From: an uncultured Acholeplasmatales bacterium
GTDB lineage: Bacteria; Bacillota_I; Bacilli_A; Acholeplasmatales; Anaeroplasmataceae
Length of the DNA stretch: 41,319 nt
Direction of reading: 5' to 3'
NCBI GenBank assembly: GCA_944324725.1
Contig: CALUXJ010000004.1
Location: 1 to 41,319, forward strand
Part shown: one piece after another, positions 5,108-26,297 of the stretch
Layout of the letters: every line of letters begins with the position of its first letter
How positions within the stretch are numbered: position 1 is the first letter of the stretch
Notes under the pieces: model-generated
The model's input: the letters and a program-made list of their open reading frames with translations, nothing else
Told to the model about the DNA's origin: nothing
The model's database searches: none
Program-made: the position numbers and the translations under genes

Positions 5108-6136
5108 TTATTTGTCTTCATACTGCATTGCTAGATTATACATATAATTAGTATCTTGCATTAATTTAGTAGATGGTGTGTTAATCTTAGCTATTAAAGC
5201 TAAACTAATCGTTTTTTGGGTAGTTAACAAAAAGTGCACATAATCAGGTTTTGGATTTAGATTGCTAAGCTTGATATTATACTTTTCGATAATTATTTGA
5301 ATCTTTTTATTTTCACTACTAATTTGACTAGCTAAATGATTAAAACAGCTACCTAAAAAACCTGCTAATTTAGCAGTGTTATTAGAAATAGTATCTTTAA
5401 CACTATTGCTAGCTGTGATAATAAGACCTTTTATTTCTTCTAGGTCCTTTTTACGATCAACTAATTGTAGAGCTTCCTTTAAGCTATCAGCTCGTTTCGT
5501 TTCCAAAAAATAAATAACTAAGTCTAAATTTTCCCAATCTCTTTTATCTAAAAATTCATAGTAATTACTAGATATAGCTAGATACGTATCTTTAGCCTTT
5601 AAGGCTAAGTTAGCAATAAAAATTAATTGATCATTAATACTACGTACTACGTCAAGCCTTTTAAAAGCTAGACTAGTACTTTTAGTAGAAAGACGATTTT
5701 TTTCTTTTTCGAACTTTTCAATTTCTTCATCTATTTGTTCAATGATTTTATCTTCAAGCAGTTCTAAATATTTAGCCTTTTCTTTAAGCATATTACGATA
5801 CAATTTTTTACTAGCTCTCAGTTCTTTCTTATTTTCTTTATATTTTGTGGTAAAGTTCCGTCTTATTTTAAGTAAAAGTTTTACTAATATTATTCCTAAT
5901 AAACTAACTAGGGCTATTCCTCCAAGAACTAAACAAATGTAGCTAACAATGCCCTGTAATCTCGTCGCAAAGGAATCCGTAGAATTATATTTATAATCCC
6001 ACCATAAAACAGCTCCAATAACACAACCTATAATTGCCGTTATAATTAATATTTTGATTAGTTTGCGAAAAGGTCTTGAAGCAGTTGTTTTGTATTTATT
6101 CTTTAAATGAGCAATTTTTTCTTTTAGCTCCACCAA
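5108..6136 (-). CDS. Two-helix membrane protein with coiled coil, function unknown
   Basis: I do not recognise a named family. The 342-residue product starts with a basic stretch. Two membrane helices follow at about residues 27-48 and 63-91, separated by a short polar loop. A long, highly charged coiled coil covers about residues 92-150. The C-terminal half is mostly helical and soluble. It contains WENLDLVIYFLETKRADSLK followed by EALQLVDR, which I recall as a recurrent stretch in uncharacterised membrane proteins of Clostridia and Erysipelotrichia. With both termini inside, the coiled coil and C-terminal domain would be cytoplasmic. The start is TTG at 6136 or the adjacent GTG at 6133. No good ribosome binding site precedes either, and the frame overlaps the end of the upstream small gene by 13 bases, suggesting translational coupling. 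Confidence 0.7.
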   Translation of the reverse strand: MVELKEKIAHLKNKYKTTASRPFRKLIKILIITAIIGCVIGAVLWWDYKYNSTDSFATRLQGIVSYICLVLGGIALVSLLGIILVKLLLKIRRNFTTKYKENKKELRASKKLYRNMLKEKAKYLELLEDKIIEQIDEEIEKFEKEKNRLSTKSTSLAFKRLDVVRSINDQLIFIANLALKAKDTYLAISSNYYEFLDKRDWENLDLVIYFLETKRADSLKEALQLVDRKKDLEEIKGLIITASNSVKDTISNNTAKLAGFLGSCFNHLASQISSENKKIQIIIEKYNIKLSNLNPKPDYVHFLLTTQKTISLALIAKINTPSTKLMQDTNYMYNLAMQYEDK

Positions 6137-6378
6137 TTTTTTTCATATTGAGCAATAACTAGCTTATCAACATTAATATCTTCTTCCTCTTTAATCTTAT
6201 TTTCTAAACTATCAATACTTGCTTGAATAGCACTTATTTCCCTATCTATATTGGCTATAGTTTCCTTATTTTTAACTATTACACTATTCAATTCGTCGAC
6301 TTTATTCTTGTCTAAAAATATTAAAGATAAGCCAGCTCGAAGACTATATAACTCGCTTAGAATTTCCATTTTTCCCAT
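6124..6378 (-). CDS. Small coiled-coil protein, function unknown
   Basis: The product has 84 residues. After a short hydrophobic helix (LYSLRAGLSLIFL) it is almost entirely a heptad-like coiled coil, with segments such as IVKNKETIANIDREISAI and DSLENKIKEEEDI, ending in NWWS. The start ATG lies eight bases after AAGGGA. It overlaps the start of the following membrane protein, and the two coiled-coil proteins share one transcript, so a direct interaction is a reasonable guess. No signal peptide is seen, so it is probably cytoplasmic or membrane-associated. It has no recognisable family and is too short to assign a function. Confidence 0.65.
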   Translation of the reverse strand: MGKMEILSELYSLRAGLSLIFLDKNKVDELNSVIVKNKETIANIDREISAIQASIDSLENKIKEEEDINVDKLVIAQYEKNWWS

Positions 6379-6486: not shown

Positions 6487-9400
6487 TTATTTAGCCTTCT
6501 TAACTTTTAAACCAATAGTTAGTGGATCTTCAATCCATCTAGCGTATAAGATTAAGTTTTCATTTGGCATTGTCTTAATATTAGCTGGATATTTAAATTC
6601 TTGATCTAAATACCAACCAACGAATTTATAACCGATTCGACTTGGTGTAGGTAAGGTTACACTCATGTTCTTCCGGTATTTAATTTCTTTAACTTTGACA
6701 TTACCCTTAGAAATAAATCTAATCTTGAATCTTCTTGTCTTAATTATCACAATAATGATAACTTGAACTAATAAGAAACCAGCAACGCCAAGGACTATCC
6801 ATAACCACGTAAAGTCAATTGCCTTATCGGTTACTACAATAGCGTAATAACTGAAGTGAGTTGTGAAGAACTCTAGATTACCATCTTTTAAGTAAGATTC
6901 AATTTCTTGCCAATCAGACAAGTCATCCTTGATATTTACAATGCTATAAGTCTTATCAACAGTTATTTCTTCATTAGGTAGGGATAATGTTACTCTAACT
7001 TCTGATGAAGGCGCTATTTCATTGCCTTTTGCATCTACTAATTTAATATCGTAGAAACGAGATACTTGTCCATATTCTTGTAACAAATCAGCAACTTGAT
7101 TGTTACTTTCTTCTTCTACAACTAATTCAATAACAATATGAGCATCAGCTGGTAAGCCTTTACCATCAACTGATGTAACGACAACCTTAACAGTCTCATT
7201 GTTCATAACTGTTTCGGTGCTTACTTCCATAATCCGGTACATAGCTACGAGAGTTAAATTGCCTGTAACTGGAGTATTGAAGTCATATTTTGCACCATTT
7301 AGATACCAAGCATCAAAGATATAACCATCCTTAGTTGGAGTAAATAATTCAGCTAAGCTATCATAAGCTACATTATTAACTGTCTTAATCACTGTGCCGT
7401 CAATATCTTGATAAGTAATTGTATAGCGACTTACTTCATATTTTGCGTATAAAGTTAAGATGCCATTAGTTGAGTTAGCAAGGATAGCTGGGGAAATTTC
7501 TACCACTGCTTCTCCACCGAAACTACTATCTAAATACCAACCGACAAAGCTATAACCTGTCTTGCTAGGGGCTAATAATACTAATGGTTTTTCGGCCATA
7601 GCTAAAGCTGTAACAGTAGTTACATTGCTAGAATGATTAATACCACCATTAGTCTCATAAACAATGTTAAAGGCTGTTGTTGTATATTGAGCTTTTAAAG
7701 TAATATCAGTTGTTAAATTAAAGATTGAGTCTTTAGTAATATTAACAACTTCACCATCTGTTGTTTCATAATACCAAGTTACAAAGCTAATACCATAAGG
7801 CATCTCTAATACTGGTAACTTAGAACCATAAGTTTCATAATAGTTCATTGTTATTTCTGGTACATTAATACCTAATTCACCAGTTAAGAAGGAAACCTTA
7901 TATGAATTAATTTCCCACTTAGCATATAATACTAAATCTTTTGCATAACCTGTAGTATCACTAATTTTTGTCGTATAATCGCTATCTAAGTACCATGCTA
8001 CAAATGTATAACCGGTCTTAGTTGGATTTTTAAATTCTACTACTTTTTCTACCGTATAGCTTGTTGGATTTTCCTTACTATTTGTACCACCATCTAGATT
8101 ATAAACGATACTATAGTTAGTTACTTCCCAATTTGCTACTAAAACTAGATTTTCAAATCTTCCATCTGTTGATGTAATTTCTTGACCATTATATGTCCAA
8201 TTAACAAAGGTGTATCCTTCTCTTGTAGGACTAGCGAAGGTAATGTTAGCTAAAACTGAATAACTATCCTTGTTAGCTCTGTTATTAGTACCATCGTTTA
8301 AGTCATATGTAATAGTATAAGTTATAACTTCCCATTTAGCTACTAAACTTATATCACCAGTTGAACCTTTTTCAATTGTTTCAACCCGAGATTGACCATT
8401 ATACCAACCAAGGAATTTATAACCTAATTTTTCAGGTTCATTTAAGGTTATAGTTGCAGTTTCAACATTATATGTACTTGGATTTGCAGAAGCTAAAGTA
8501 CCTTCATCTAAATCATAATTAATATTATAAGTTATGATTTTCCAAACTGCCGTAACAGTTATATCACCAACTAAGCCATTTGTTGATGTAATATAAGTAC
8601 CTTCATAATCCCAACCAACAAACTTATAGCCTGTCTTTGTAGGAGTCTTAAATACTACATTAGATTCAACGGTATAGCTTGTAATACCATCATAATTATC
8701 AACATTTGCATAAGTGATTGTATATTCATCTTCTAAAACCCATTTTGCATGTAATACTAAGTTACCAATTCTTCCCGTTGTATCCGTTATCTGATTCTTG
8801 TAATCAGCATCTAAATACCAACCATCAAATACATAACCAGCTCGCATTGGGTTAGCAAATTCAACAATATTCTCAACATCATAACTATTAGGATTATTAT
8901 TCTCAATGTCATCATTTAAAACATATGTAATTTGATAAGTATTTTTGTTCCATTTTGCATATAATTCAAGATTTTCAGCATAACCAGCTGTAGAAATAAT
9001 AGCTTCGCCTGTGTATTCTTCATTTAAATACCAGCCACCAAAACTATAACCATTTCTACTTGGAGTTTCTAATACTTTATTCTCTTCAACATTATAGCTC
9101 AATGTTCCTGTTAAATTATTATACATATAATTATAAGTGACTTGATATTCTAATCTATCATATGCAGCTACTAATATAATATTATTTGCTGGCATTAAGA
9201 ATGTAGATAAATCAACTTTTTTACCCTCATATGTGAAATGTGAGAAGTCATAACCTGTCTTACTTACAATTTGTGTAGGTATTAAGCCTTTATACTCAAC
9301 ATAGATTGGATTAATATAATTGCCACCTGCTGTATCAAATTCAACTAAATATCTATTGATACTATATTCAGCAGTAATTATTAAATCACTAGCTGGTAAG

Positions 9401-12400
9401 CTTGTTACATCTACTGACCAATTAGTAAATGTATAACCTTCCTTTTCTGGCTTTTTCAAGCCACTTAATAAAGCAGTAAGAGAAATTTTACCATACTCAA
9501 ATGTAGTTGGGTTAGTGCCTAAAGTGATGCTACCACCATCTAATTCATAGCTAATATTATATGTATTAGCATTCCAAACAGCTGTGAAAGTAATATTAGA
9601 TGATGTCATTTCATAATCAGCTAATAATAACTTTCCTTCACCACTTAAATAATATTCAATACCATTAGCGGTAAAGTGTGAGAAAGTATAACCTAATCTT
9701 TCTGGATTAATACTAGATATATCAATATGTCCACCATAAGATACATTTTGACTAGGAATTTGATTACCTCCAGCCATATCAAAGGTCACATTATAAGTAT
9801 CCTTATCCCACCTTGCTGTTAATGTAATATTAGAGGTATAGTCATAAATCATACCGTTAATTACTTGTCTACCATCAGCATCATACCAACCAATGAAACG
9901 GTACCCAGCTAATGTTAAAGTAGGAATGTCAGAAATATACTTATCGTATTCAATTTGGATACTAGAAACAGTTTGCTCATATTCATCATTATTGACTGCA
10001 AAACTAATCGTATAATCGTTTTCTTCCCATAGTGCATATAATGTAACTGAATTAGTGATATTTTGCGTAAACTCATCACAATCATCATAATCTTTTGGAC
10101 CATTTGGAGTTTTTGCCCAACCGATAAATGAATATCCAATCTTACTAAATTGTTGCGCATTTAATTCTAATGTTTCGTTATATTTAATATCCTGATTTGG
10201 CATATTACCAGTACCACCATTGCCATTGAAGACAATTTGATAAGTATTAGGACTCCAAATAGCATACAAATTAACTACATCATCTTGTTTAGTAGATAGA
10301 TTAATTACCATATGTTGATCAGTATAAACAACATCACCATTACTAGTTGTAGCCCAGCCAATAAATGTATGACCAGTGTATTCAAAGCCATTAGGTGTTA
10401 ATTCATTAGATTCATCATAAGTCAATGTCTGATTAGACATAGAACCACTACCACCATTAGCGTTAAACTTTACATAATAGTTAATTGGTAACCATTTTGC
10501 ATATAGTGATTTTGATGTATTCTCCGTATCACCAAAGTTATACTCAGTATTATAATTAGAATCTATGTACCAGTCGCCTAAAACATATCCTTCCTTTGAG
10601 AATAATGTGTCTAATTCTACTTCATTAAGTGTATATGTTGCGTTTTCTAATGTAGGAGTAATTGTCATTACACTTTCACCCTCTACATATAAGAATACTC
10701 TAATCTTACTTGTAATAAATTCACCAGTTGCACTAATATCAGTACTTGGCATATCAGCAGTATCAGTGAACGAATAATCAAAACCAGCAAATCTATAATC
10801 AAAATCTCCCACTGTATATTCTTTACTACTAATTAATTTATCTAATGATCTAATATCTGCTTCATATGGAACGTCAATTATAACTATAATACTGTTAGTA
10901 TTTTCTAAATATTCAACACTATACCTATAACCTTTTAAGTTAGTAGATATTTCACCAATAATAGTGTTACTTAAACCCATTGGAATATTATTAATTGTTA
11001 GTTCAACATTATATATATTTTTTGTAAATTTTGGTTTGATTGTAATACCACTTGTATAAGTATATATATCACCTGATACAACTTGTTTTCCAGATTCATC
11101 AAACCAACCAACAAATGTGTAGCCTGGTAGATCTAAGGTTGTTAAATTTGGAATATTTGCACCATATGTAATATTTATACTTTCTGGTAAATCATTATCA
11201 TAAAGACCTTCATCATCAGCAACAAAACTAATTGTGTATGTCTTCTCTATCCATTTTGCAGTCAAAGTAATTATATTTTGCTCGTTAGCAAGCTTGATTA
11301 TATTTACATCTACCATTGATACTTCTTTATCATCCTTATCAAACCAGCCAATGAAGCTATAACCAATCTTATATATAGAATCTTTTGAAGGTAATTCTGG
11401 TAATTGACTTATAGTGAATGTAATACTATCAATATCGTCACTAATACCACCGGATAAACTAAATAGAATAGTATATGTTTTTTCAGAAAAAACAGAATAT
11501 AATTCTAATATGACATTATCATTTGGATCAGAAACACTTTCCATATTTATTAATACTTTATCCAAGTTAGAATATATTACTTGACCACCTTCTATATTTG
11601 ACCAACCTTTAAACAACTTTCCTTGAATTGGTTCAAAAGATAATAAAGTAACAAGTTCTCCATAAGTTACTGTTTGAAGTATTACTTCACTATCATAATG
11701 ATATTTAATTTTGAAAACATCACTAATAGGTGTCCACTCAGCTTTTAAAACAATATTTGTAGTAACTTTATAGGTTTCGTCAGTATTAGAAATGTAAATC
11801 GTATTATCTTTAATTACATAGACGCCACTACCATTAATTGTAAAATGACTAAAATTATAACCAAAACGGCTTGGCATACTACTTAAAATAATTTCTGAGC
11901 CATATGAGAGATTATATAACGGACTAATTGAATCGCCACCATTCATATCAAAGTTAACTTCATAACCTTCACTTGATAATGGGCTAAATCTAGCTTTTAA
12001 CTCTAAATCAAAAGCATAATTATAAATAGAACCAAATACCACTTGTTTTCCAGATTCATCAAACCAACCAACAAATGTATAGCCTGGTAGATCTAGGGTT
12101 GTTAACTTTGGAATAATTGCACCATATGTAATATTTATACTTTCTGGTAAATCATTATCATAAAGACCTTCATCATCAGCAACAAAACTAATTGTGTATG
12201 TCTTCTCTATCCATTTTGCATATAATACTAAATCTTTTGCTAAACCAGCTGTAGATACAATCTTTTCACCAGTGAATTCTTCATTTAAATACCAACCATC
12301 AAATTCATACCCTTCTCTTTGTGGTTTAATGGCTGATGTTTCATCATATATAAATGTTACGTTAGTATTAATTGTATAACTTGTCCTATCGCTATAAGTA

Positions 12401-15400
12401 CCACCATTAGTAACATATTTAATGTTGTACTCTACAGGAGACCAATTTGCTTTTAAAGTTATATTACGATTTTCTTTGCCAATCAAACCAAGCAATGAAT
12501 TTTTATCTATTGTAGCTAATTCATCACATGACCATCCGGTAAACTCATTACCAAATAGTGAATATCCTAGAGCAAAATTTATTTGAGCAGTTGATTTTAA
12601 GTCACTATAACTATAGCTAATAGAATTCATTGTTCCAGTAGCATCATTATTATTCTTATCGAAGATAATAGTTAAAATATAATCTCTTCTTACAGCATAT
12701 AAATTGACTATATTTTGCTCATTTACATATTGAACTAACAAATCTACCGCATCAGATGCCATGAAATTAATTACTTTACTATCACTTTCTAGTGACCAAC
12801 CTATAAACTGACTTCCTAAAGCATTATTGCTAGATGAACTGATAGTACTAGAATTTCCATAAGTTACACTTTGACTAGGTGTACCATCATTGTAAACAAT
12901 TGTAAAGCTAATAGGCTCATAATTTAACACCAATGTAATCGGAGTTGAAACAACCATATCAGAATAATTATTTTCTTCATATTTCCAAACTGGAGTACTA
13001 TATCCTATTATTGTTTGTTCATAATGTTCTAGCATATCCAAAGTCAAAATATCTCCACTTGATAATGCTATATAAGCAAATTCTGTAGGTGTGTTATTAC
13101 CAAATTGCTTTTGTAAAGTAACCAAAATATCCTTCATAAAAGTAGAATATAATGGTTCGTTTATTACAAATGTAGTATCCGCATTTTGTAATTCTATATT
13201 CTTAAAAGAATATTTCTCGTTTCCTTGGCTATATGAGTAATCTTGCGAAAGAACTTCATTAATAAATTCTCGACTACCCTCATATTCGGTTAAAACTTCT
13301 ATCGTTAGTTTACTACCAACTAAAGTAATATTAACTGTAATATTTTCACCATTACGTGTAGTACTAATACTACTAGTATCATCTATATCTTCTAAACTAA
13401 TTTCTAATTCTTTTGCAAATCGCTTTAATAATTCTGATTTAAAATCATAGCCACTAGGTACGTTATTAATTTCTATTATTGTTGCAAACTGCTTTTTAGT
13501 AAAACGTGCATAGTATTGTTTATTACCAAATTCCCCACTTGAAATACTATTTATAGCATCGCCTTCAAAAGTTGGATTATCATACCAACCTGCAAAAGCG
13601 TATCCTGTTTTAGTTACATCAGCTAATAGATTTAATCCCTGTGAATAAGTATATTTATCTACATCAATAAGCTTATCACCATCAAAATAACTAACACTAT
13701 AACTTTCCGGTTTCCAAATTGCATACAAAGGTTTATCTAAAGAACTATATATTGTACCTGGTAGGAAATAATTACCTCCATTTGGATCAGCATTCCTATC
13801 GGTTGACCAACCCAAGAATATGTAGTGTTCCTTTGAGAAACCATTGCTTGGCAAAACAATGTTGAAATCAGTGGAATTAGTGTTTGTTAACAATCCACTA
13901 ATTGGAGAAACTTCTCCATTACCACCATTACCATCGAAAGTAATATCATATCTATAATATGCTGTTAATTGAATTTTTTCTTCTATTGTTAAACTTATAA
14001 CTCTTTGTCCAGCTTGATATTTATTTCCATTAGCATCTTGCCAATACACAAATTCGTAACCTGTTAAAGTACTATCTTTTAAAACAATAAACTCATCATA
14101 ATCATATTCACTAGTTTCAGTAGTTGTACCATTTTCACTGTATATTATCGTATATTTTGTCGGATTATAAACAGCATATAGGCTAATTTCTCCCTCTTGA
14201 TTGCTACCAGATAAGTTGGCATATTGAGCCACATCTTCCATATTACTGATAACATTACCACTAGCATCTTCATAATGATCTATGATATATCCTGCTTTAA
14301 TAGACTCATAGTCATTCTTAAAATTAATAACATCATCAACCGTCTTATCATTTAATAAAAGAGGATTAGAATCATTATTATATGTGCCACCATTGAAATT
14401 TAAAGTAATGTCGTATTTTATCAAATCCTCAGAAACATATAATTCTAATATTTTATCATTTGATAATTCCTCTAATGTGGCAAAATCGATACCCGTAATA
14501 ATATCTTGACTGTCACCATCTATGAACCAACCTTTTTTATAATAACCAGGATGAAAATAAATATTAAGAAGATTAATATTTCCGTTAGAAAAATCATTAA
14601 TAGTTAAAGCTAAATCTAAGTTTTCTAAATGATTATTTGCATCATAGAATTTAATGGTATATGTGTCTATCTCATATTTTGAAACAAATATAGTTGTAGA
14701 TGTTATTACGTTACTTGAATCATTTGCGAGCAACTCTATATTATTCGGAATAGAATACCATCCATCAAACGAATATCCTTGTTTGCTCATACTATGAGAG
14801 ACCATGTCATACAAGTCACCAAATGTTGTATTATAATTAACAGTTACACTAAAATAAACGTCTCCATCATTATAGAAAAGTACATCATATTTCTTTGGCT
14901 CATATTTAGGAGTTACAGTAATGCTATTATTATCATCAACGTTATTTAGTAACTCACTAACTGGTAAATAATCAACATAAGCTTTACTATTTTCAGGAAT
15001 TAACCAACCATTAAATGTAAATCCTTCTAGTTCATCAGGTTTAAGATTTGGTGCAGCTATAGCTTGATCGTTTATAGTAAAGTAATAAACTTCTGTATAA
15101 ACTTCATCAAATTTAAAGGTTATAGTATATTTTATTGGCTCATAAATCAATGTTACTTCTTGAATTGTTTGATTTGGACTACTAAACAATTCAATTAAAG
15201 TTTTAAAATCATAGCTTTCCTGGGCATTAACGATTATATCATTACCTATACCAAAACCTATAAAGTTATAATGTGATACTTCCTTAACATCAATTTTAAT
15301 TGAATTACCACTATTAATACCAAAAGTAACATCCGCAATTATTTCAGTTTGAACATTTGAGTTAACAAAGTGCAATGTATATTCTTTTGGTGTAGCTACT

Positions 15401-18400
15401 AATTCTATAGTAATAATATATTTTGAGCCATCTTGGCTAATACAATACCCATAATCATTAATCAAACTACCTAAATTTGGCATTAACAAATTATCACCAA
15501 ATATGGTCGTCCATGATGTTGTAGTTCCATTTAAATAATAATTCAAATTGTAATATGGTTTGTTTGTCTCATCTATACTATTAATATTTTCTATAGTAGG
15601 CTGATTAGTAATATGAGCCTGATATTCATATGTAGCTGATTTGATAGAACTACCATTTGTTACATACCGAATTTCATATTCAACTGGATTCCACTTTGCA
15701 ACAACACCCGTAATATTATACGTGACTACCATATTTGTAACATCATTGCCATTGATTTCCCAATTGCTAAATGTGTAACCTGGCCTGCTACTAACAATTT
15801 CTGCTAAAGCATCTTCAATCGTGGTTCCATATTGTACATTTAAAATGGTATCTGATACTATTTGACCTTCATTATATGTTTGGTAAGTAATTGTGAATTG
15901 TGAAAATTCTTCCTTCAATGTTAAATTACCAAATATTGTTGTCGCCACTGTAAACTTATGTTCCGTTATGTTGCTAATTGGAGTTAAATCATTACTAAAG
16001 TACCAGTCACCAGTAAAATCATACATTTCTAACGTTGGTTTTACATAATCTGTTATCACATAATAACCATCTTCAGTACTTTCAGCAAGATAGACTAATG
16101 TATAAATAGTATTATTATTGTATATTAAGTTAGCAATAATTTTGATTACTCCTGAAGTTTTAATAGAAGCATTGACAGACACATTAGCAGCTGGCATCGT
16201 ACTAAATATAACTTTTTCTTCTTTTCCTTCAGTGTTCTTGGTATAAATCAAGATACTATTTTCTTTTCCGATATTATTTAAACTACTTATATCTGTTTTA
16301 TATGGTATATAAAATATATTATCACTAGGCCATTTCAAATATTTATTCTCATTGGAATTTAAAGCTTCATTTATAGCCTTCATAATGGCATTCTTATATG
16401 AGTCATCAACATCATTAACATTAATTGTTAATTGATATTCATTAGGTGTCCATATAGCTTCTAGCATAGCATTAGAAGTGATAGTATATGTGCTTGTATA
16501 GATTTCATCAGTAATTCCAACTACTCTCCAACCACTAAACGTATAATTTTCTCTTTCTTCTGGAGTATATCTAGTAAGATCAATTATATCGTTATAGAAC
16601 CCTTCAATTTCTACTGGAACTATTGTCTCACCAGTTAATGTAACATTGTATTTATCTTTTTGATAAATAGCTGTAAAAGTAGTATTTTGGGTCAATGGCG
16701 TTTGAATATAAATATTGGTCGTTTCACATTGGAAGTTTGAATAAGTATAACCATCTTTAGTTGGACGCGCTGGCAAATAATTATTTGCGGTTGAATAATA
16801 CATTGCATGCACAACATAGTATCTTAAAGTCTTTTCTTTAGCATCTACTTCTAATTTAATGTGTTTATTAGAATCATCCAAATCAGCTAAATTTTCTAGG
16901 TAAAAACCATCCTTCGCATCATCTTCATCAAATGTAAAACTACCATCTTCTGTCGCATCAAATATAATATAAAATTTAATAACTGCAAATTCCACAGAAA
17001 TAGTAACAACATTATCAACGGCATTATCTAACACATATTCGTTGTTTATTGTAATTTCCGGGCTCTTCATTTCATATCCTTCAAAGTTAAAGAACTCACT
17101 ATCTATACTTTTTGATTCACTATTAAAGGTGTATGTAATAGCCGTTTTTTCTGGTTTTTGACCCCATAATTCATTGCCTGTAAAACTTATGTCAAATTCA
17201 ATTAGATATGTTTTTTCACGATAACTAGCTGTTAATGTCACTGTTTTACTACCACTATCATCTTCTCCTGTTAAATCTGGTAGATATATCGTACCATCAA
17301 CAACAATATTACCATCTATTAACCAGCCAACAAAATCATAACCAGATTTTGTAGCAGTTGGCCATAAACTTGTATCAATAGGTGTATTATAGTATAATTT
17401 GTGTCCTTCTGCATTACCATCTAGTGTCGCACCAGAACCCGGGTCAAATGAAATTTGGTATGCTTCTGGTTGTAATGTAATTGAAATTATCGTGTAACCA
17501 GTGACTATTATCTTCTCATCACCTGTACCTGAGCCATCATATTGAAGTTCATTATTAACAGTTATTTTAAAACTATCATATTTATCTTGATAACCCTTTG
17601 GTCTATTGTATGAACTACTAGTTAATATAGTGCGTAAATCGGATTTTAATTTATTTACAACAATACGATTGTCACTATACCAGTCAACATTTATGTCGTT
17701 TGTAAAATATTGTGTAATAAAATTGCCTACTGAATCAAATACGGAAATAGTGTATGAACTTTCTCTCCATTTTAATGTAATAGTCGGATTAGTAGCATTG
17801 TTATCTAATCTAACATTAATATAATTGAATGTTTTTATACTATCCCCAACATAATAAACTGCATTATATCCCGCAAAATTATATATAGATTCAAATAAAG
17901 AAGGGTTATTATGGATAAGTAATGTTTTAACATGCTCTAGAGCTTCTGTTAGTTCGGAGCCATAAGTAGCTTTAAGAATCAATTGATTTTTTTCAATATC
18001 AAATGACAAATTATAATCACTATTTGCATATGAACTATTAAGAGTCCCCTGTTCAGTTTGAATAATAATATCATACGTAGTTATTCCATAGTAAGCATAG
18101 ATTGTGACATCATAAGCAGGCATAAGCATGTCTTCTATTTCAACATTATCCACACTGTGTAATGAGAAAGAAATAAATTCTCTACCAGCAGGTGTAGATA
18201 TATCTGAAATAGTTATATTATTTACAAAATTGATTGGTTGACCATATTCGATTTCTGTTACCCATAAACCAGCTTCATTGCGTTCGAACGTATATTCACC
18301 AATTGTATATCTACCATTGGTAACATTATTAAATGTACCACCATACAAATTTATTAAAAGTTCATAAGAATCAACTTCAAAGTAACCATAAATTGTAATA

Positions 18401-21400
18401 TCTTTTAAACCATCAATTGTCAATTCAGTTATAAGATCACTAATCGTTATAAATTCGAATTCCCTATTATCAATTAATACATACCAATATTGGAATGTAT
18501 AACCTGTACATGTTGGAGATACTAATCCAAATGTACTATTGATTGTATATACCACTTGTTCACTATTAGGATTTGTTATATTACTACTATTTTGAATTAC
18601 TTGGCCTTCACTATCTTTAAAAATGTAGTCATATGTAATATCAAATTTTTTTGTATCACATAACAACGTAAATTCAAGGTTCATCAAATTAGAAAGTGGG
18701 ACTTGTTGTTGAGATTCTTTAATAATATCATAGAAGCTTAATAGATAACTACCTCCAGTTTGAGCAATTATTCTAAAGCTTGTCATATAATATTTTTCAC
18801 CACTAATGGTTGTAATCCAATATTTAAATTCATATGCATTATTTTCTTTAATTGTTGGAAGTTGAATATTTTTACCGCCATTAGTTGTATCGTTAATTGT
18901 ATAAATTATTACATTATCAGAGCTATCTAATTCCACATTGCCATTAGCATATTGTTGCAAACCAGTTAAAGTAATTCTATATTCTATTGGTTCCCATTTA
19001 GCATATAAAACCTCATCACTAGAAGAAATATAGCCATCAAACTCTTCATTATATGCAGAATCTCTATACCAACCTGCAAAATAATAGCCAGGGTATGATA
19101 AGTGTTCAACCACATTAGATAAATCTAATGCTAGGTCTTTACTAGAAACATAGTTAACATTAGCAAACCATACATTATTAATATTATCAAAATTAAACGT
19201 AATGTTATCATTTACTTCAATAGAATTTACATCGCTTATTATACCATTAGCAAGATTAAGTTCTATTCTAACACTATGAGTATCAGTGACAGGGCCATTA
19301 TCAATATTACTCAACTGAACCGCAATTTTTGATAGGTTTCTAATTTCATCACCATTTAATCTAAGCGTTTCATTAACGAATGTTTGTAATTGAGGATAAT
19401 AGTAATATGCATCCTCATCGTATGAATTCCAACTCCAACCTGATTCAAAGAAAGTAGAGTTTAAACCAAATGGTTTTTGATTATTTGTTTGACAAATCAA
19501 ATGAGAGGATGAAAGTTTAATACTTGAATTTGTATTTGCCTCATAGCCTAAAGTTTCTACGGCATTAGCATTTCCAATAGCTTGAATAATTGAATCTGTA
19601 TAACCAGAATAGAAAATATCGCCGTCAAATACAGATGTGCTTGTCAAATTAGCTGCTACACCTAAACCAACTAATGCACCAGCAAAGGCATACTCATTGC
19701 CATCAAATAATAATTCCCCATTGGCAATCACAGAGCCAACATTCATAGCATATGATAATTCTGAGTAAGCAAAAATACCAGCAATACCACCAACATGACT
19801 CCAAGCTTCTATAGTACCAGTATTAATAACATTTCTTAAATCCTTGTTGCCGCCTTTCCAACCTTGATCAGTACGCTCAATTGATGTTTGACCAACAATA
19901 CCACCGGCACCACGAGCACCAATAGAATGTGATTCAGTTAAACTTGAATCTGACTCTTCACTAATTTGGTCTTTATGAGTAAATACAACATTAGTCATAT
20001 CATTATATGAGAAGGAATTTTCATATATGCCTTCCCATGTAGCTGAAACATTCCCAACATTCATTGAGTTCGACAACGTTGAAGCACCATTTATTCTACC
20101 AACAATACCGCCAACATAGGCGTTAATTTGAATTGTTGTTATAATATTGTTTCCTACACCATAATTATAAGTTGTAGCCAAACCTGAAGTTGCAATTATT
20201 GTACCAATATTAAATCCTGTAGTTATTGTATTGTCTGTCTTGGTTGTATCGTTTTCACTAATCATAGTTCCTACTAATCCGCCAACACCAAATCTGGCCC
20301 TAATAGCACCACTATTATACGCTTCTTCTAGAATTATGTGATAGCCTTGACCCATAATACCACCAGCTCTACTACCATAATAAGATTTCATAGTAGAGCT
20401 TTCACTCCAACTAACATCTTTTTCAATATCTGTTATAGCTGGTATTACAATCGTATTTTCTGAATCGTCACTTGCGACGACTATATTCGGATTATATGTA
20501 ATAGTACCTTCATTAATAACACGTGTTATTTGACCATTTTGATAAGTATTTGTGTTTGTGTCATAATGGCGATAATATGTACCAAATATACCACCAGCAT
20601 TAACTCCGTAGAATGAAATGTCTGCTGTATTTCTTATATTGTAATATGTTCCACCATAGGAAAGTCCTACTAAACCACCAACACTAATTCGGCCACTAAC
20701 ATCACCAGCAATTACAACGTTTTCTATGCTAGCATCCTTTGTATAACCAAATAAACCAATAAAATCATCACCACTAATATCAACCGTAATTGTCTTATTA
20801 TTACCATCGAAATTACCACTAAATGGCATTGCTCCACTTAGTATTGTTTGTGATTGTATAGGTAAGTTGTCATTACCAAAAACATCCTGAGTAATTTTTG
20901 GCACACTAGCAATTACTTGACTCATTGGATTAGAACTATTATTAAAATCATCGCTTAACTTAAAATAATAGTTAGAATAATCTATGTATTCAAAGCCTAA
21001 ATCACCACTCACCAAAAGACAATTAAAGTATTTGTAAGATTTTCCTTCTATTTCAACTTCAAAGTTCTCAGTCGCAATAGACGAATTTGAACTATTAATT
21101 GTTCTTGCAAGCATATTTAATCCATTTGTATCATTTATTATAAATGGATCACTACTAGTACCTAAGCCACTATTATAATTAGCAGAATACTCTTCACCAG
21201 TAAAGATTGATGCCCATTGAGCCTCAAAAGTAAAGCTTGTTGATTCAGTAGAATTTTTAATTGTATCTATATAAGAATTACTAGCTAAATCTGCTTCATC
21301 CTCAAGAACTAAATCTTCACCATTTACTTGAACATAGCCAGTACTTATTTTAACCTTCCAACCTAAGAAAACAAAACCAGTTGCATAATATCCTAGAGGA

Positions 21401-24400: not shown

Positions 24401-26199
24401 CCACTATACATATTTAACTTTGACTGCATTACTAAAGAAATACCAGCGCCATCAGCAGATTTATTTGTAGAATTAAAATTACCTGTTTCATACACAGAAT
24501 TATGTATTATATTGCCATCATACATATTAATTGTAGCATAACTAGCTCTTATACCAGCACCACCAGTACTATTATTTATATTTGTTAAAGCATTATATTG
24601 AATTGTAGCGCCAAAAATATTTAATATTACGTTATCATTGCTAAATACATTAGCGTTTTGACTATCATCCTTTTTATCGCCGTATAGTCCAATTGCACCA
24701 CCAACATTATTTAAATTCTGATCATCACTAAATGATGATGCCTCATTTAATCTATTTTGAAGAGTGGCACCCTTGAACAAGTTAATATTTGATGCATAGT
24801 AACCATAAACAATTGGTTGACTACCAGCACTACCATTTTCAACACTATACATTTTTCTGCCATAATCTTCCACATTTTCATTTAGTTCTGGTTCATAAGG
24901 CTCAGTTATAAAGTAATAACTGCCATTAACATCTTCTTCCCAAACGGAACCACCATCAAGGACTATTTCATTAGTTCCATTAGTATAAATTGTACTTTGT
25001 TTTGAATTGGTAGAATTATAAACCTCTAAACCTCCAATAGATAATGAACCATTAACTCTTATACTAGCAGAAGTGGCAAGTTTTACTTTTACATCACCAA
25101 AACTAAAGAGATTTAAGGCATTTGAAGCACTTATGTTTATATTAGATGCTATTTCGTAGGAAGAGTTTGAATATGATGATGTCTTTAAAATGTAATTACC
25201 CTCACTTGGAAAACTTTGAGTGGTAGATAATAAACTAAAATTGTATTTCTTTTCAACATTACTATCAAAATAATTGTCATATCCAGAAGATGCATTAGTA
25301 ACAAAAATACTCTTTTTAGTTTTTTCCATATTATCATTTTCATCGTTAGGCGTATCATCAGGATAATTAATGGTTGAGAAACTACCTTCAATTACACCAT
25401 TAATTATTGTATTAGTAGAATTACCTACTAATAAAATAACGGCTGCTTCAGATCCTAACTTAATAGGTGAGTAAGGAGTTATAGGCGCAAAAGTATTATC
25501 TGAGCTAGAAGTATAAGTTCCATAATTAGATGTTATAACATTGTTATTTTCACTTGATACATTTAAAGCCCCATTAATTTCAAATGTATTAAAATAAGTT
25601 GAATTTAGAGTCCCACCATCTAGTGTCAAACTGTCATTAACATAAAGTTGAGCATAGAAATCATTTGAATCAGAATTATATTCATTAGCTTTAATACTAG
25701 AATTATTTGTTAAAACAAAATTAGTTTCTAGTGTTAAAGTTGATTGTCTATCCAAAATAATATTCAATCCAGATAATGTAACAGTATAACCAAGAAATTC
25801 TTGACCGATTGTTACACTAGCAGGTTCTTGTGATTTAATTATGATATTTTGACCAGACTGGATTTGAATATCCGTTGCTGATGTCTGATTTCCTGAAAAT
25901 GATTCATTACCTTGAGATTCTTCAGTTGAAGCCTGACCTTTAGATAAAGATATATCAGACTTTAACTCAATTGTTGTAACTGTCTCATTATCAGCACTAG
26001 CATTAGTAATAGCATCAACAAGTTTAGAATAATAAACTGTATTTTCATCTGATGTTGTACCGCTAGGACCAACCACAAATGTCATTTCCTTACTTGGTTC
26101 ATTATCAGCACTAACCTTATATCTCGTGCTTGTTAAGCCAAATACAAATAATACTAAAAGTATTAACATACCTGAAAAATAACAAATTTTCTTTCTCAT
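6487..26199 (-). CDS. Giant secreted, membrane-anchored InlB B-repeat protein (6570 residues)
   Basis: One uninterrupted frame starts at ATG 26199, seven bases after GAGGAGG. Residues 1-31 are a signal peptide (MRKK, hydrophobic core, VSA|DN). About 50-790 look like a right-handed beta-helix, with recurring GGAGI, GGGI and IxGGxIxxN turns; a second short beta-helix-like stretch covers about 1180-1290. One InlB-type module lies near 1550-1620. About 1790-2190 are GLUG-type repeats (VGGLVG, AGGIFG, VGGIVG). About 2310-6330 are roughly fifty InlB B-repeat / Listeria-Bacteroides repeat modules (Flg_new, PF09479) anchored by G-Y-x-F-x-G-W-Y and ending L-x-A-K-W. About 6330-6460 form a separate beta-rich domain. 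Residues 6463-6486 are a membrane helix followed by KTRR. The last 84 residues contain one more InlB-type module. No LPXTG motif and no catalytic motif were seen. Adhesion or surface-coat function is inferred from the families. Confidence 0.93.
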   Translation of the reverse strand: MRKKICYFSGMLILLVLFVFGLTSTRYKVSADNEPSKEMTFVVGPSGTTSDENTVYYSKLVDAITNASADNETVTTIELKSDISLSKGQASTEESQGNESFSGNQTSATDIQIQSGQNIIIKSQEPASVTIGQEFLGYTVTLSGLNIILDRQSTLTLETNFVLTNNSSIKANEYNSDSNDFYAQLYVNDSLTLDGGTLNSTYFNTFEINGALNVSSENNNVITSNYGTYTSSSDNTFAPITPYSPIKLGSEAAVILLVGNSTNTIINGVIEGSFSTINYPDDTPNDENDNMEKTKKSIFVTNASSGYDNYFDSNVEKKYNFSLLSTTQSFPSEGNYILKTSSYSNSSYEIASNINISASNALNLFSFGDVKVKLATSASIRVNGSLSIGGLEVYNSTNSKQSTIYTNGTNEIVLDGGSVWEEDVNGSYYFITEPYEPELNENVEDYGRKMYSVENGSAGSQPIVYGYYASNINLFKGATLQNRLNEASSFSDDQNLNNVGGAIGLYGDKKDDSQNANVFSNDNVILNIFGATIQYNALTNINNSTGGAGIRASYATINMYDGNIIHNSVYETGNFNSTNKSADGAGISLVMQSKLNMYSGLIGYNHGSSAYDSDGAGVMVRSNSTLNIHGGDIAYNFTYGFGGGICVWNSHVTISGGNVYGNRATYGGGIATSANTEASITLNESTLGNTKIYNNTAYTPQTTDGRVTGYGGGLALGNSQFITNQTLTLNDADITNNTAEFGGGISVYSTGAIGNNKLVLNGGYIAENRARNNNQGNGIYCISDEVVYGEGVSYNGTNYMVELSGNIQIDTSNNIVFSGLVADDTAYSQIPLSNVEESNRNGWNFWENTNDNGITHNIGSLFYKVKNLNIEDNYLELTNNNSSYFVLMPKQDCSIKLTFYEERQWYWQTIKYNEMAIYQSDDKEYSVNYGESTNVTIVDASSDGIYKLKAGKIYSLVNTNDNRSARITKIEVDAPFTEKQIPIVVTNNLTATGIVGLISYAANDLYANNNILVGYFGDIEPQPNKFLLDTADYEVKYDESIYEKYLFIDSVAKNTEQDRDNDKFISLSYYEGGSIKKEEDNTYYSSLSEAIKSDEFILLQQEGKEIAVIIHKNRSLSIEDSNDTTEDATDVMEDTIVINDSVTIPSNSNVTIVSSDPSNICTLSLGENFAFGETLFTVEKDAELTLNNIIIDGNKERVVSGAKDGGNLIVENNGTFTLGENATIQNNRGTSDYASVIEIGRGNTVTNINGNIVSNEGYYGAIYSVYSTSIINIGSNAIITGTKYLGSDYDLDNYDLDVLLEGGTFNLQSFSGEIGVIGKIGSCKINATGTFSNSTPINVFVGDQQYYRNNTIVYSMKTSDTDQTLVAGEIDYTSHFTLILAHVPNYDMLKKSNTNYDTVLSMVLAIEISIQDIWENVTPSGSTTTIYEKTDNTQKIQVSDENFNSNLELEEYAIDLGLISDINNYMPAYHSATKTIIFYIDSITPLNLEKLKDLSVSNGFSIAGFILHASDAEKNDTADATKYYGLTSTISTKDYSDNESHIYLGVLYQANTYTITFDNGGLETVKGTMEMQEMSYEAFISTPADESETTNSPILSSTLNPLGYYATGFVFLGWKVKISTGYVQVNGEDLVLEDEADLASNSYIDTIKNSTESTSFTFEAQWASIFTGEEYSANYNSGLGTSSDPFIINDTNGLNMLARTINSSNSSIATENFEVEIEGKSYKYFNCLLVSGDLGFEYIDYSNYYFKLSDDFNNSSNPMSQVIASVPKITQDVFGNDNLPIQSQTILSGAMPFSGNFDGNNKTITVDISGDDFIGLFGYTKDASIENVVIAGDVSGRISVGGLVGLSYGGTYYNIRNTADISFYGVNAGGIFGTYYRHYDTNTNTYQNGQITRVINEGTITYNPNIVVASDDSENTIVIPAITDIEKDVSWSESSTMKSYYGSRAGGIMGQGYHIILEEAYNSGAIRARFGVGGLVGTMISENDTTKTDNTITTGFNIGTIIATSGLATTYNYGVGNNIITTIQINAYVGGIVGRINGASTLSNSMNVGNVSATWEGIYENSFSYNDMTNVVFTHKDQISEESDSSLTESHSIGARGAGGIVGQTSIERTDQGWKGGNKDLRNVINTGTIEAWSHVGGIAGIFAYSELSYAMNVGSVIANGELLFDGNEYAFAGALVGLGVAANLTSTSVFDGDIFYSGYTDSIIQAIGNANAVETLGYEANTNSSIKLSSSHLICQTNNQKPFGLNSTFFESGWSWNSYDEDAYYYYPQLQTFVNETLRLNGDEIRNLSKIAVQLSNIDNGPVTDTHSVRIELNLANGIISDVNSIEVNDNITFNFDNINNVWFANVNYVSSKDLALDLSNVVEHLSYPGYYFAGWYRDSAYNEEFDGYISSSDEVLYAKWEPIEYRITLTGLQQYANGNVELDSSDNVIIYTINDTTNGGKNIQLPTIKENNAYEFKYWITTISGEKYYMTSFRIIAQTGGSYLLSFYDIIKESQQQVPLSNLMNLEFTLLCDTKKFDITYDYIFKDSEGQVIQNSSNITNPNSEQVVYTINSTFGLVSPTCTGYTFQYWYVLIDNREFEFITISDLITELTIDGLKDITIYGYFEVDSYELLINLYGGTFNNVTNGRYTIGEYTFERNEAGLWVTEIEYGQPINFVNNITISDISTPAGREFISFSLHSVDNVEIEDMLMPAYDVTIYAYYGITTYDIIIQTEQGTLNSSYANSDYNLSFDIEKNQLILKATYGSELTEALEHVKTLLIHNNPSLFESIYNFAGYNAVYYVGDSIKTFNYINVRLDNNATNPTITLKWRESSYTISVFDSVGNFITQYFTNDINVDWYSDNRIVVNKLKSDLRTILTSSSYNRPKGYQDKYDSFKITVNNELQYDGSGTGDEKIIVTGYTIISITLQPEAYQISFDPGSGATLDGNAEGHKLYYNTPIDTSLWPTATKSGYDFVGWLIDGNIVVDGTIYLPDLTGEDDSGSKTVTLTASYREKTYLIEFDISFTGNELWGQKPEKTAITYTFNSESKSIDSEFFNFEGYEMKSPEITINNEYVLDNAVDNVVTISVEFAVIKFYIIFDATEDGSFTFDEDDAKDGFYLENLADLDDSNKHIKLEVDAKEKTLRYYVVHAMYYSTANNYLPARPTKDGYTYSNFQCETTNIYIQTPLTQNTTFTAIYQKDKYNVTLTGETIVPVEIEGFYNDIIDLTRYTPEERENYTFSGWRVVGITDEIYTSTYTITSNAMLEAIWTPNEYQLTINVNDVDDSYKNAIMKAINEALNSNENKYLKWPSDNIFYIPYKTDISSLNNIGKENSILIYTKNTEGKEEKVIFSTMPAANVSVNASIKTSGVIKIIANLIYNNNTIYTLVYLAESTEDGYYVITDYVKPTLEMYDFTGDWYFSNDLTPISNITEHKFTVATTIFGNLTLKEEFSQFTITYQTYNEGQIVSDTILNVQYGTTIEDALAEIVSSRPGYTFSNWEINGNDVTNMVVTYNITGVVAKWNPVEYEIRYVTNGSSIKSATYEYQAHITNQPTIENINSIDETNKPYYNLNYYLNGTTTSWTTIFGDNLLMPNLGSLINDYGYCISQDGSKYIITIELVATPKEYTLHFVNSNVQTEIIADVTFGINSGNSIKIDVKEVSHYNFIGFGIGNDIIVNAQESYDFKTLIELFSSPNQTIQEVTLIYEPIKYTITFKFDEVYTEVYYFTINDQAIAAPNLKPDELEGFTFNGWLIPENSKAYVDYLPVSELLNNVDDNNSITVTPKYEPKKYDVLFYNDGDVYFSVTVNYNTTFGDLYDMVSHSMSKQGYSFDGWYSIPNNIELLANDSSNVITSTTIFVSKYEIDTYTIKFYDANNHLENLDLALTINDFSNGNINLLNIYFHPGYYKKGWFIDGDSQDIITGIDFATLEELSNDKILELYVSEDLIKYDITLNFNGGTYNNDSNPLLLNDKTVDDVINFKNDYESIKAGYIIDHYEDASGNVISNMEDVAQYANLSGSNQEGEISLYAVYNPTKYTIIYSENGTTTETSEYDYDEFIVLKDSTLTGYEFVYWQDANGNKYQAGQRVISLTIEEKIQLTAYYRYDITFDGNGGNGEVSPISGLLTNTNSTDFNIVLPSNGFSKEHYIFLGWSTDRNADPNGGNYFLPGTIYSSLDKPLYAIWKPESYSVSYFDGDKLIDVDKYTYSQGLNLLADVTKTGYAFAGWYDNPTFEGDAINSISSGEFGNKQYYARFTKKQFATIIEINNVPSGYDFKSELLKRFAKELEISLEDIDDTSSISTTRNGENITVNITLVGSKLTIEVLTEYEGSREFINEVLSQDYSYSQGNEKYSFKNIELQNADTTFVINEPLYSTFMKDILVTLQKQFGNNTPTEFAYIALSSGDILTLDMLEHYEQTIIGYSTPVWKYEENNYSDMVVSTPITLVLNYEPISFTIVYNDGTPSQSVTYGNSSTISSSSNNALGSQFIGWSLESDSKVINFMASDAVDLLVQYVNEQNIVNLYAVRRDYILTIIFDKNNNDATGTMNSISYSYSDLKSTAQINFALGYSLFGNEFTGWSCDELATIDKNSLLGLIGKENRNITLKANWSPVEYNIKYVTNGGTYSDRTSYTINTNVTFIYDETSAIKPQREGYEFDGWYLNEEFTGEKIVSTAGLAKDLVLYAKWIEKTYTISFVADDEGLYDNDLPESINITYGAIIPKLTTLDLPGYTFVGWFDESGKQVVFGSIYNYAFDLELKARFSPLSSEGYEVNFDMNGGDSISPLYNLSYGSEIILSSMPSRFGYNFSHFTINGSGVYVIKDNTIYISNTDETYKVTTNIVLKAEWTPISDVFKIKYHYDSEVILQTVTYGELVTLLSFEPIQGKLFKGWSNIEGGQVIYSNLDKVLINMESVSDPNDNVILELYSVFSEKTYTILFSLSGGISDDIDSITFTISQLPELPSKDSIYKIGYSFIGWFDKDDKEVSMVDVNIIKLANEQNIITLTAKWIEKTYTISFVADDEGLYDNDLPESINITYGANIPNLTTLDLPGYTFVGWFDESGKQVVSGDIYTYTSGITIKPKFTKNIYNVELTINNIPMGLSNTIIGEISTNLKGYRYSVEYLENTNSIIVIIDVPYEADIRSLDKLISSKEYTVGDFDYRFAGFDYSFTDTADMPSTDISATGEFITSKIRVFLYVEGESVMTITPTLENATYTLNEVELDTLFSKEGYVLGDWYIDSNYNTEYNFGDTENTSKSLYAKWLPINYYVKFNANGGSGSMSNQTLTYDESNELTPNGFEYTGHTFIGWATTSNGDVVYTDQHMVINLSTKQDDVVNLYAIWSPNTYQIVFNGNGGTGNMPNQDIKYNETLELNAQQFSKIGYSFIGWAKTPNGPKDYDDCDEFTQNITNSVTLYALWEENDYTISFAVNNDEYEQTVSSIQIEYDKYISDIPTLTLAGYRFIGWYDADGRQVINGMIYDYTSNITLTARWDKDTYNVTFDMAGGNQIPSQNVSYGGHIDISSINPERLGYTFSHFTANGIEYYLSGEGKLLLADYEMTSSNITFTAVWNANTYNISYELDGGSITLGTNPTTFEYGKISLTALLSGLKKPEKEGYTFTNWSVDVTSLPASDLIITAEYSINRYLVEFDTAGGNYINPIYVEYKGLIPTQIVSKTGYDFSHFTYEGKKVDLSTFLMPANNIILVAAYDRLEYQVTYNYMYNNLTGTLSYNVEENKVLETPSRNGYSFGGWYLNEEYTGEAIISTAGYAENLELYAKWNKNTYQITYVLNDDIENNNPNSYDVENIVEFANPMRAGYVFDGWYLDADYKNQITDTTGRIGNLVLHAKWVLEDEYTITYANVDNYDGITSYTVESNVVFKTPTKTGYKFVGWDYEGTYITSTNGLVGDITVTAVWKIITYNINYDLDEGTLASANPSTYNVETATITLNEPEKLGYKFLGWYNGQSRVETIEKGSTGDISLVAKWEVITYTITYDLNDGTNNRANKDSYSVLANITFASPTREGYTFVNWTYNGQEITSTDGRFENLVLVANWEVTNYSIVYNLDGGTNSKENPTSYTVEKVVEFKNPTKTGYTFVAWYLDSDYTTKISDTTGYAKDLVLYAKWEINSYKVSFLTGELGINVPEITMNYYETYGSKLPVLEMPYGISFVTWYYETTDGEVVNITKDSIFNLTTDITLKAQYTTTAFNIVYETNGGINHSSNVTTVTALAMAEKPLVLLAPSKTGYSFVGWYLDSSFGGEAVVEISPAILANSTNGILTLYAKYEVSRYTITYQDIDGTVIKTVNNVAYDSLAELFTPTKDGYIFDAWYLNGAKYDFNTPVTGNLTLVAMYRIMEVSTETVMNNETVKVVVTSVDGKGLPADAHIVIELVVEEESNNQVADLLQEYGQVSRFYDIKLVDAKGNEIAPSSEVRVTLSLPNEEITVDKTYSIVNIKDDLSDWQEIESYLKDGNLEFFTTHFSYYAIVVTDKAIDFTWLWIVLGVAGFLLVQVIIIVIIKTRRFKIRFISKGNVKVKEIKYRKNMSVTLPTPSRIGYKFVGWYLDQEFKYPANIKTMPNENLILYARWIEDPLTIGLKVKKAK
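11081..11260 (-). repeat. 180-bp near-identical direct repeat, copy 1
   Basis: This segment matches 12041-12220 with four mismatches in 180 bases by direct reading. It encodes the module containing SINITYGANIPNLTTLDLPG and FVGWFDESGKQVV. Confidence 0.95.
12041..12220 (-). repeat. 180-bp near-identical direct repeat, copy 2
   Basis: Second copy of the repeat at 11081-11260, exactly 960 bases (320 codons) away and in the same frame. The 60 bases at 12121-12180 are identical to 11161-11220. The sequence diverges sharply on both sides. Confidence 0.95.
19640..20830 (-). repeat. Coding region of GLUG-type repeats
   Basis: The protein segment repeats a Gly-rich strand such as VGGLVGLSYGG, AGGIFGTYY, AGGIMGQGY, VGGLVGTMI, VGGIVGRING and VGGIAGIFAYS. 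These alternate with strands such as NTGTIEA or NVGNVSA. This is the pattern of the GLUG motif (PF07581), also found beside peptidase M26 domains. No HExxH protease motif was seen here. Confidence 0.75.
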
Positions 26200-26297
26200 A
26201 ATAGCTCCTCCTCTATTTTTTAAAAAACGTTTATAATTTAACAAAATACTTGTACTTTTATTTTAAAAATTGCAATTAAATAATTATATTATTTACC

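Follow-up and report, generated by a model that had tools for sequence, protein, structure and literature searches.

The question raised by this locus is whether a repeat module of the InlB B-repeat (Flg_new) type, described so far from secreted and surface proteins, lies inside the cell at the very end of a giant surface protein, and what such a module may do there. The window, i.e., the whole stretch of 41,319 nucleotides that was analyzed, is one contig of an uncultured Acholeplasmatales assembly of 1.4 Mb in 96 contigs.

Locus and architecture of the giant protein

The gene encoding the giant occupies positions 6487-26244 on the minus strand and is open throughout, with 6,585 codons from the first TTG and 6,570 residues from the likely ATG at 26199. 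It is flanked by rpoC on one side and a pair of ABC transporter genes on the other. From its N-terminus onwards, the protein is composed of a signal peptide, a long N-terminal region, the array of modules, an all-beta stalk domain, one helix, the KTRR cluster and a complete module (Table 1), and its translation ends in ...AIDFTWLWIVLGVAGFLLVQVIIIVIIKTRRFKIRFISKGNVKVKEIKYRKNMSVTLPTPSRIGYKFVGWYLDQEFKYPANIKTMPNENLILYARWIEDPLTIGLKVKKAK*. The N-terminus is predicted to be exported by the signal peptide, with cleavage after SA as a guess. Sequences matching Pfam PF09479 were detected in 28 stretches of the C-terminal half, and only Flg_new families exceeded the Pfam cutoff in the parts of the giant that were scanned. 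The predicted fold of the stalk domain was weakly similar to ankyrin ZU5 (Foldseek 4d8o, prob 0.97; 3ud1, TMq 0.32; E-values 0.008 and 0.06).

Table 1. Position and supporting evidence of the features recognized in the giant protein (window coordinates).
Feature	Position	Strand	Evidence
Signal peptide MRKKICYFSGMLILLVLFVFGLTSTRYKVSA	26107..26199	-	Sequence; octanol-scale window -12.9
Extracellular array, 36 detected Flg_new-type modules, all acidic	7234..19230 (limits approximate)	-	Own-repeat HMM and charge table
Membrane-proximal all-beta stalk domain	6820..7224	-	AF2 model, Foldseek
Single membrane-spanning helix	6736..6810	-	AF2 helix 139-163 of the 245-residue C-terminus; octanol-scale window -13.6
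KTRR stop-transfer cluster	6730..6741	-	Flank charges: +6 after the helix, -1 before
Flg_new/InlB B-repeat module, predicted to be cytoplasmic; the basic pair peculiar to tails (YRK) follows strand 2	6541..6729	-	Pfam, 2Y5P profile and fold match, charge
Conserved C-terminal peptide IEDPLTIGLKVKKAK	6490..6534	-	Alignments; lower model confidence (pLDDT 65-74)

Downstream of the giant, two genes occupy positions 5108-6378 of the window, one for a membrane protein of 342 residues and one for a coiled protein of 84; congeners carry other genes there, with a protein of about 245 residues common to three of them. Among congeners, the length of the giant itself lies between about 5,280 and 7,500 residues, with 28 to 51 modules detected. 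It is an accessory protein of the genus, since only 6 of the 8 genomes, including that of the window, carry the helix plus tail, and the giant is absent from the matching locus of a 95% complete congener (G001), which reads rpoC, repeat protein, endonuclease IV and ABC pair. No match to the giant was found in another genome, G006; rpoC was not found in that assembly either, so this absence is uncertain.

Neither sortase (PF04203) nor penicillin-binding transpeptidase (PF00905) was detected in the eight genomes of the genus, and control genomes were positive for both. The genus is probably wall-less. With no sortase, no cell-wall transpeptidase and the genus taken as wall-less, a helix is the anchor to be expected. 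No LPxTG-type motif was present in the last residues of the giant, which thus differs from sortase-anchored fibrillar adhesins both in lacking the sorting signal and in the lack of a sortase in the genome.

The tail as a complete InlB-type module

A first-pass annotation had placed, at positions 6487-6741, a complete repeat module of the same kind as those of the array, within a tail of 84 residues following KTRR. Translation of the reading frame returned the same coordinates and the same tail; its length was off by four, the 84 residues being KTRR plus 80. The tail matched the Pfam Flg_new profile (PF09479) from position 1 to 64 of 65 (E 2.7e-13), and at 50.3 bits against a cutoff of 27, over nearly the whole profile, the match is not due to chance. 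NCBIfam TIGR02543 matched the tail at 2.2e-8, and a profile of helix plus tail retrieved the InlB B-repeat 2Y5P from the PDB sequences at 3.7e-5.

An AF2 model was built for the last 245 residues (mean pLDDT 83; 78-94 in the module and lower in the C-terminal peptide), in which strands 166-171, 181-183, 199-205 and 224-232 followed the helix, the strands of the repeat beginning directly behind it. When this model was compared to the PDB using Foldseek, the top match was again 2Y5P (E 5.7e-5, TM-score by target 0.80, rmsd 2.2), a result that is not independent of the sequence match, since the input alignment was shallow and consisted partly of the giant's own repeats. The tail therefore agrees with Flg_new both in passing the sequence cutoff and in the beta-grasp-like fold of 2Y5P shown by the predicted model, and its description as a complete module of the array's kind stood.

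Conservation of the tail among congeners

The annotation had suggested comparing the tail with the extracellular modules and looking for the helix-plus-tail arrangement in other genomes; five congeners carry the arrangement, and the comparison set the tails apart both in phylogeny and in charge. The C-terminal 164 residues shared 58-63% identity with four congeners and 34% with the fifth (G005), a conservation in five genomes that rules out an assembly artefact. A tree was built of about 230 modules taken from six giants, and in it one clade, with a support of 0.98, united all six tails with the module of a 407-residue protein from G005 (see below); for the same seven sequences, support was 0.757 in a larger tree with added sequences. 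The tails, according to these trees, share a single origin.

The tail was the best conserved module in four out of five congener comparisons, with identities of 69% (G007), 73% (G003), 68% (G002) and 61% (G004), against 64%, 61%, 51% and 55%, respectively, for the best outside module, and a mean of about 39% for outside best matches. Conservation was lower for the G005 tail, and in that genome the window tail matched another module best. The loop that follows strand 2 held a basic pair in 5/6 tails vs. 6/191 outside modules by an alignment-free count, which was preferred over the 0/222 outside modules with a dibasic pair given by MAFFT columns, as these are doubtful in that region. The C-terminal peptide EDPxxIGxxVK was likewise present in 5/6 tails (the window and four of the five congeners). 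The G005 tail departs from the others in all these features (net charge of only +2, neither dibasic pair nor C-terminal peptide), and thus high charge, dibasic pair and peptide are not universal among tails. Nevertheless, a real function is more likely than a leftover in view of the strong conservation, the tail-specific basic pair and the C-terminal peptide, and, the tail being specialised, the best explanation of its origin would be derivation from a surface-type repeat.

In G005, the gene located just upstream of the giant (G005:C9:50938-52158; L034, L065) overlaps the giant's start by 4 bases and encodes the 407-residue protein mentioned above. Its short N-terminus leads into a helix and KKHKIRF, followed by a module of the same type as the tail, then an unnamed middle domain and finally a ribosomal L15-like domain (PF00828, E 1.7e-11). 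Such a helix-module-L15 protein was found in G005 only and in none of the other congeners. Paralogues of the middle and L15-like parts occur in the genus as membrane-anchored proteins without the module and as helix-less, apparently soluble ones; because the latter are among its relatives, the part behind the module is most likely cytosolic.

Related architectures outside the genus

Profile searches with helix plus tail covered the order, the class and the phylum (395 class and 392 phylum genomes, a partial sampling that includes metagenome-derived genomes), and the spread of the helix-plus-module arrangement, read from the best matches listed, is a lower bound. A separate family of single-pass proteins of about 120 residues was found in another family of the class, and was sampled as four close members plus two more distant ones, G274 and G230. 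In these proteins the N-terminus is acidic, the helix is followed by a basic flank (RYGIFRKLRVRF or similar), and the whole inner part is made up of a Flg_new module; two of them exceed the Pfam cutoff (30.3 and 38.1 bits vs. 27). They share with the giant's tail the predicted layout of N-terminus outside and module inside. Their inner part is not strongly basic overall (net charge -1 to +3), so that inside modules need not all carry a high positive charge. No well-supported clade joined these modules and the tails, and because the joint nodes were weak (0.195 and 0.661) no common origin is claimed. In the five neighbourhoods viewed (L106-L110; the family also includes L116), each gene overlaps the end of an upstream gene encoding a helix-less protein of about 250 residues.

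The profile gave many other matches; in most of those examined outside the genus, the match fell on a signal-peptide or lipoprotein N-terminus with outside repeats behind it, and these were not counted as inside modules. Two membrane proteins, L085 (G367) and L117 (G222), showed a helix and a Flg_new module together with a long coiled tail rich in lysine; the helix is flanked by basic residues on both sides, and the module may lie on either side of the membrane. A more ordinary relative, L024, ends in repeats, a helix and KKRKNKSL, with no inner module.

Membrane topology

Topology was judged by hydropathy scales and charge rules. On the octanol scale, the signal peptide and the C-terminal helix stand alone in the whole giant (Table 1), every other window reaching at most about -7 in strength. 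The net charge across the helix changes from -1 in the 15 residues before it to +6 in the 15 after, and from 0 to -2 before to +4 to +5 after in the five congeners (flanks of the same length). The tail module carries a net charge of +9 (as cut, it takes in RR of KTRR; without RR it is still +7), vs. a mean of -5.9 (sd 2.6, maximum -1) for the 36 outside modules. Congener tails showed values of +11, +6, +6, +8 and +2, vs. outside-module means of -4.2 to -6.7. As evidence for an inside location, this reversal is largely independent of the helix flanks.

Based on the presence of only two strong hydrophobic segments, the charge reversal, the L15-like fusion and a second family with the same layout, we infer with high confidence that the tail module sits in the cytoplasm, as the first-pass annotation had held. 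The extracellular location customary for described Flg_new members is thus not that predicted for the tail, yet its membership by sequence and fold holds despite the predicted inside location.

Possible function and alternative explanations

The reading that we put forward, at about an even chance, combines a basic cytoplasmic membrane foot with a docking role. The signal peptide would export the giant and the C-terminal helix would stop transfer, so that the last 84 residues would stay inside, where the tail would form a folded InlB B-repeat domain. In its beta-grasp hairpin, strand 1 would set out from the helix end and strand 2 would return, bringing the YRK pair beside KTRR near the membrane; KTRR, the basic residues of strand 1 and the YRK pair could then form a patch of positive charge facing the anionic inner leaflet, as deduced from strand order and not from model coordinates. 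Such a folded foot would resist pull-out of a single helix that bears about 6,400 outside residues in a wall-less membrane, while the conserved far surface and the C-terminal peptide would probably be a docking site for an inner partner.

An adaptor role of the tail is plausible, and it may be the main one: the inside module would then connect the surface fibre to an inner structure by binding one particular protein in the cytoplasm, which might be a further copy of this module, with no mechanical or lipid-binding role. The G005 gene upstream of the giant, which combines a helix and the same module type with an L15-like domain, points in this direction, as do the conservation of the C-terminal peptide in most tails and the case of M. 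genitalium, in which the cytoplasmic C-termini of MgpB and MgpC are homologous and each protein stabilises the other (PMC4575044). On the other hand, the other congeners lack the helix-module-L15 protein and no co-varying partner was found, and the purely adaptor reading is possible but rather doubtful. The inside module could also be a passive leftover that simply stays folded, the helix and stalk having come into the array by insertion or copying, with array sequence continuing past the anchor; an array origin is indeed likely for a tail of the same family. Leftover sequence should, however, drift as the array does, whereas the tail exceeds every outside module in conservation in four congeners, and the tails form a single clade with reversed charge and a basic pair of their own, all of which makes this explanation improbable.

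The first-pass annotation had also allowed for a mistaken topology, in which the helix does not span the membrane, or another segment spans it too, and the tail lies outside. The candidate for a second span is a weak hydrophobic stretch in the array (residues 3079-3097, TTG numbering), which was rejected given its value near zero on the octanol scale (-0.4), the acidic modules on both sides and the fact that congeners have nothing corresponding to it at a shared position. Considering, in addition, that the C-terminal helix is strong and has a classic charge step, that module charge points inside as do hydropathy and flank charges, and that the L15-like fusion and the family of small proteins both agree with an inside location, this alternative is very improbable. 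Beyond the combined foot and docking role of the giant's tail, it is conceivable, at somewhat less than an even chance, that a distinct cytoplasmic InlB-type class exists in wall-less Acholeplasma relatives and others of the same class, with a helix before strand 1, a basic pair after strand 2 and at least three architectures, which would serve membrane-adjacent docking to cytoplasmic partners of giant fibres or small membrane proteins.

Comparison with known systems

The tail is like the InlB B-repeat/Flg_new family (PF09479, TIGR02543, 2Y5P) in being a complete module by Pfam, NCBIfam, PDB profile and predicted fold. Described copies are secreted or located at the surface, whereas the giant's tail is basic and predicted to be cytoplasmic, directly behind a membrane helix. 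Structural work on the InlB B-repeat treats InlB repeats as secreted or surface modules (PMC8900821), InlB is named solely as a relative of surface proteins in another study (PMC9239101), and Flg_new is treated as a stalk domain of fibrillar adhesins (PMC9210967). The annotation had known of no role for an intracellular InlB repeat, and a literature search, mostly without subscription papers, likewise found no published cytoplasmic Flg_new/InlB copy. As far as found, fold and family are known, while the inside place and the charge-reversed subclass are new, a surface stalk module having apparently been recruited to the cell interior. Flg_new is counted as a surface stalk in searches for adhesins; if the inside class is genuine, the domain alone would carry no location information.

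With fibrillar adhesin-like proteins bearing Flg_new stalks, the giant shares a very long repeat stalk, a distal N-terminal region and a C-terminal surface anchor; the anchors sought in that work were sortase motifs and cell-wall anchor domains (PMC9210967), whereas the giant is anchored by a helix followed by a repeat module. The tail also offers a handle on the way in which very long surface fibres are held in the membrane, and linked to the cell interior, in wall-less bacteria that lack sortase.

The predicted layout of the giant, with signal peptide, extracellular body, single C-terminal helix and short inner tail, is that of MgpB/P1-type proteins. P1 of M. pneumoniae is an adhesin grouped with the MgpB/MgpC layout. 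MgpB of M. genitalium has one C-terminal helix and a lysine-rich cytoplasmic end of about 70 residues, located inside by antibodies; the end of MgpC is homologous to it, and a possible role in interaction was suggested by the authors (PMC4575044). Like MgpB and MgpC, the giant is a large surface protein of a wall-less bacterium with a single C-terminal helix and a short, in its case predicted, inner tail, and the neighbouring G005 genes with a common inner module are similar in layout to the MgpB/MgpC pair. The MgpB tail, however, is rich in proline and lysine and is not described as an InlB repeat, so that the likeness is one of layout only and homology is not claimed.
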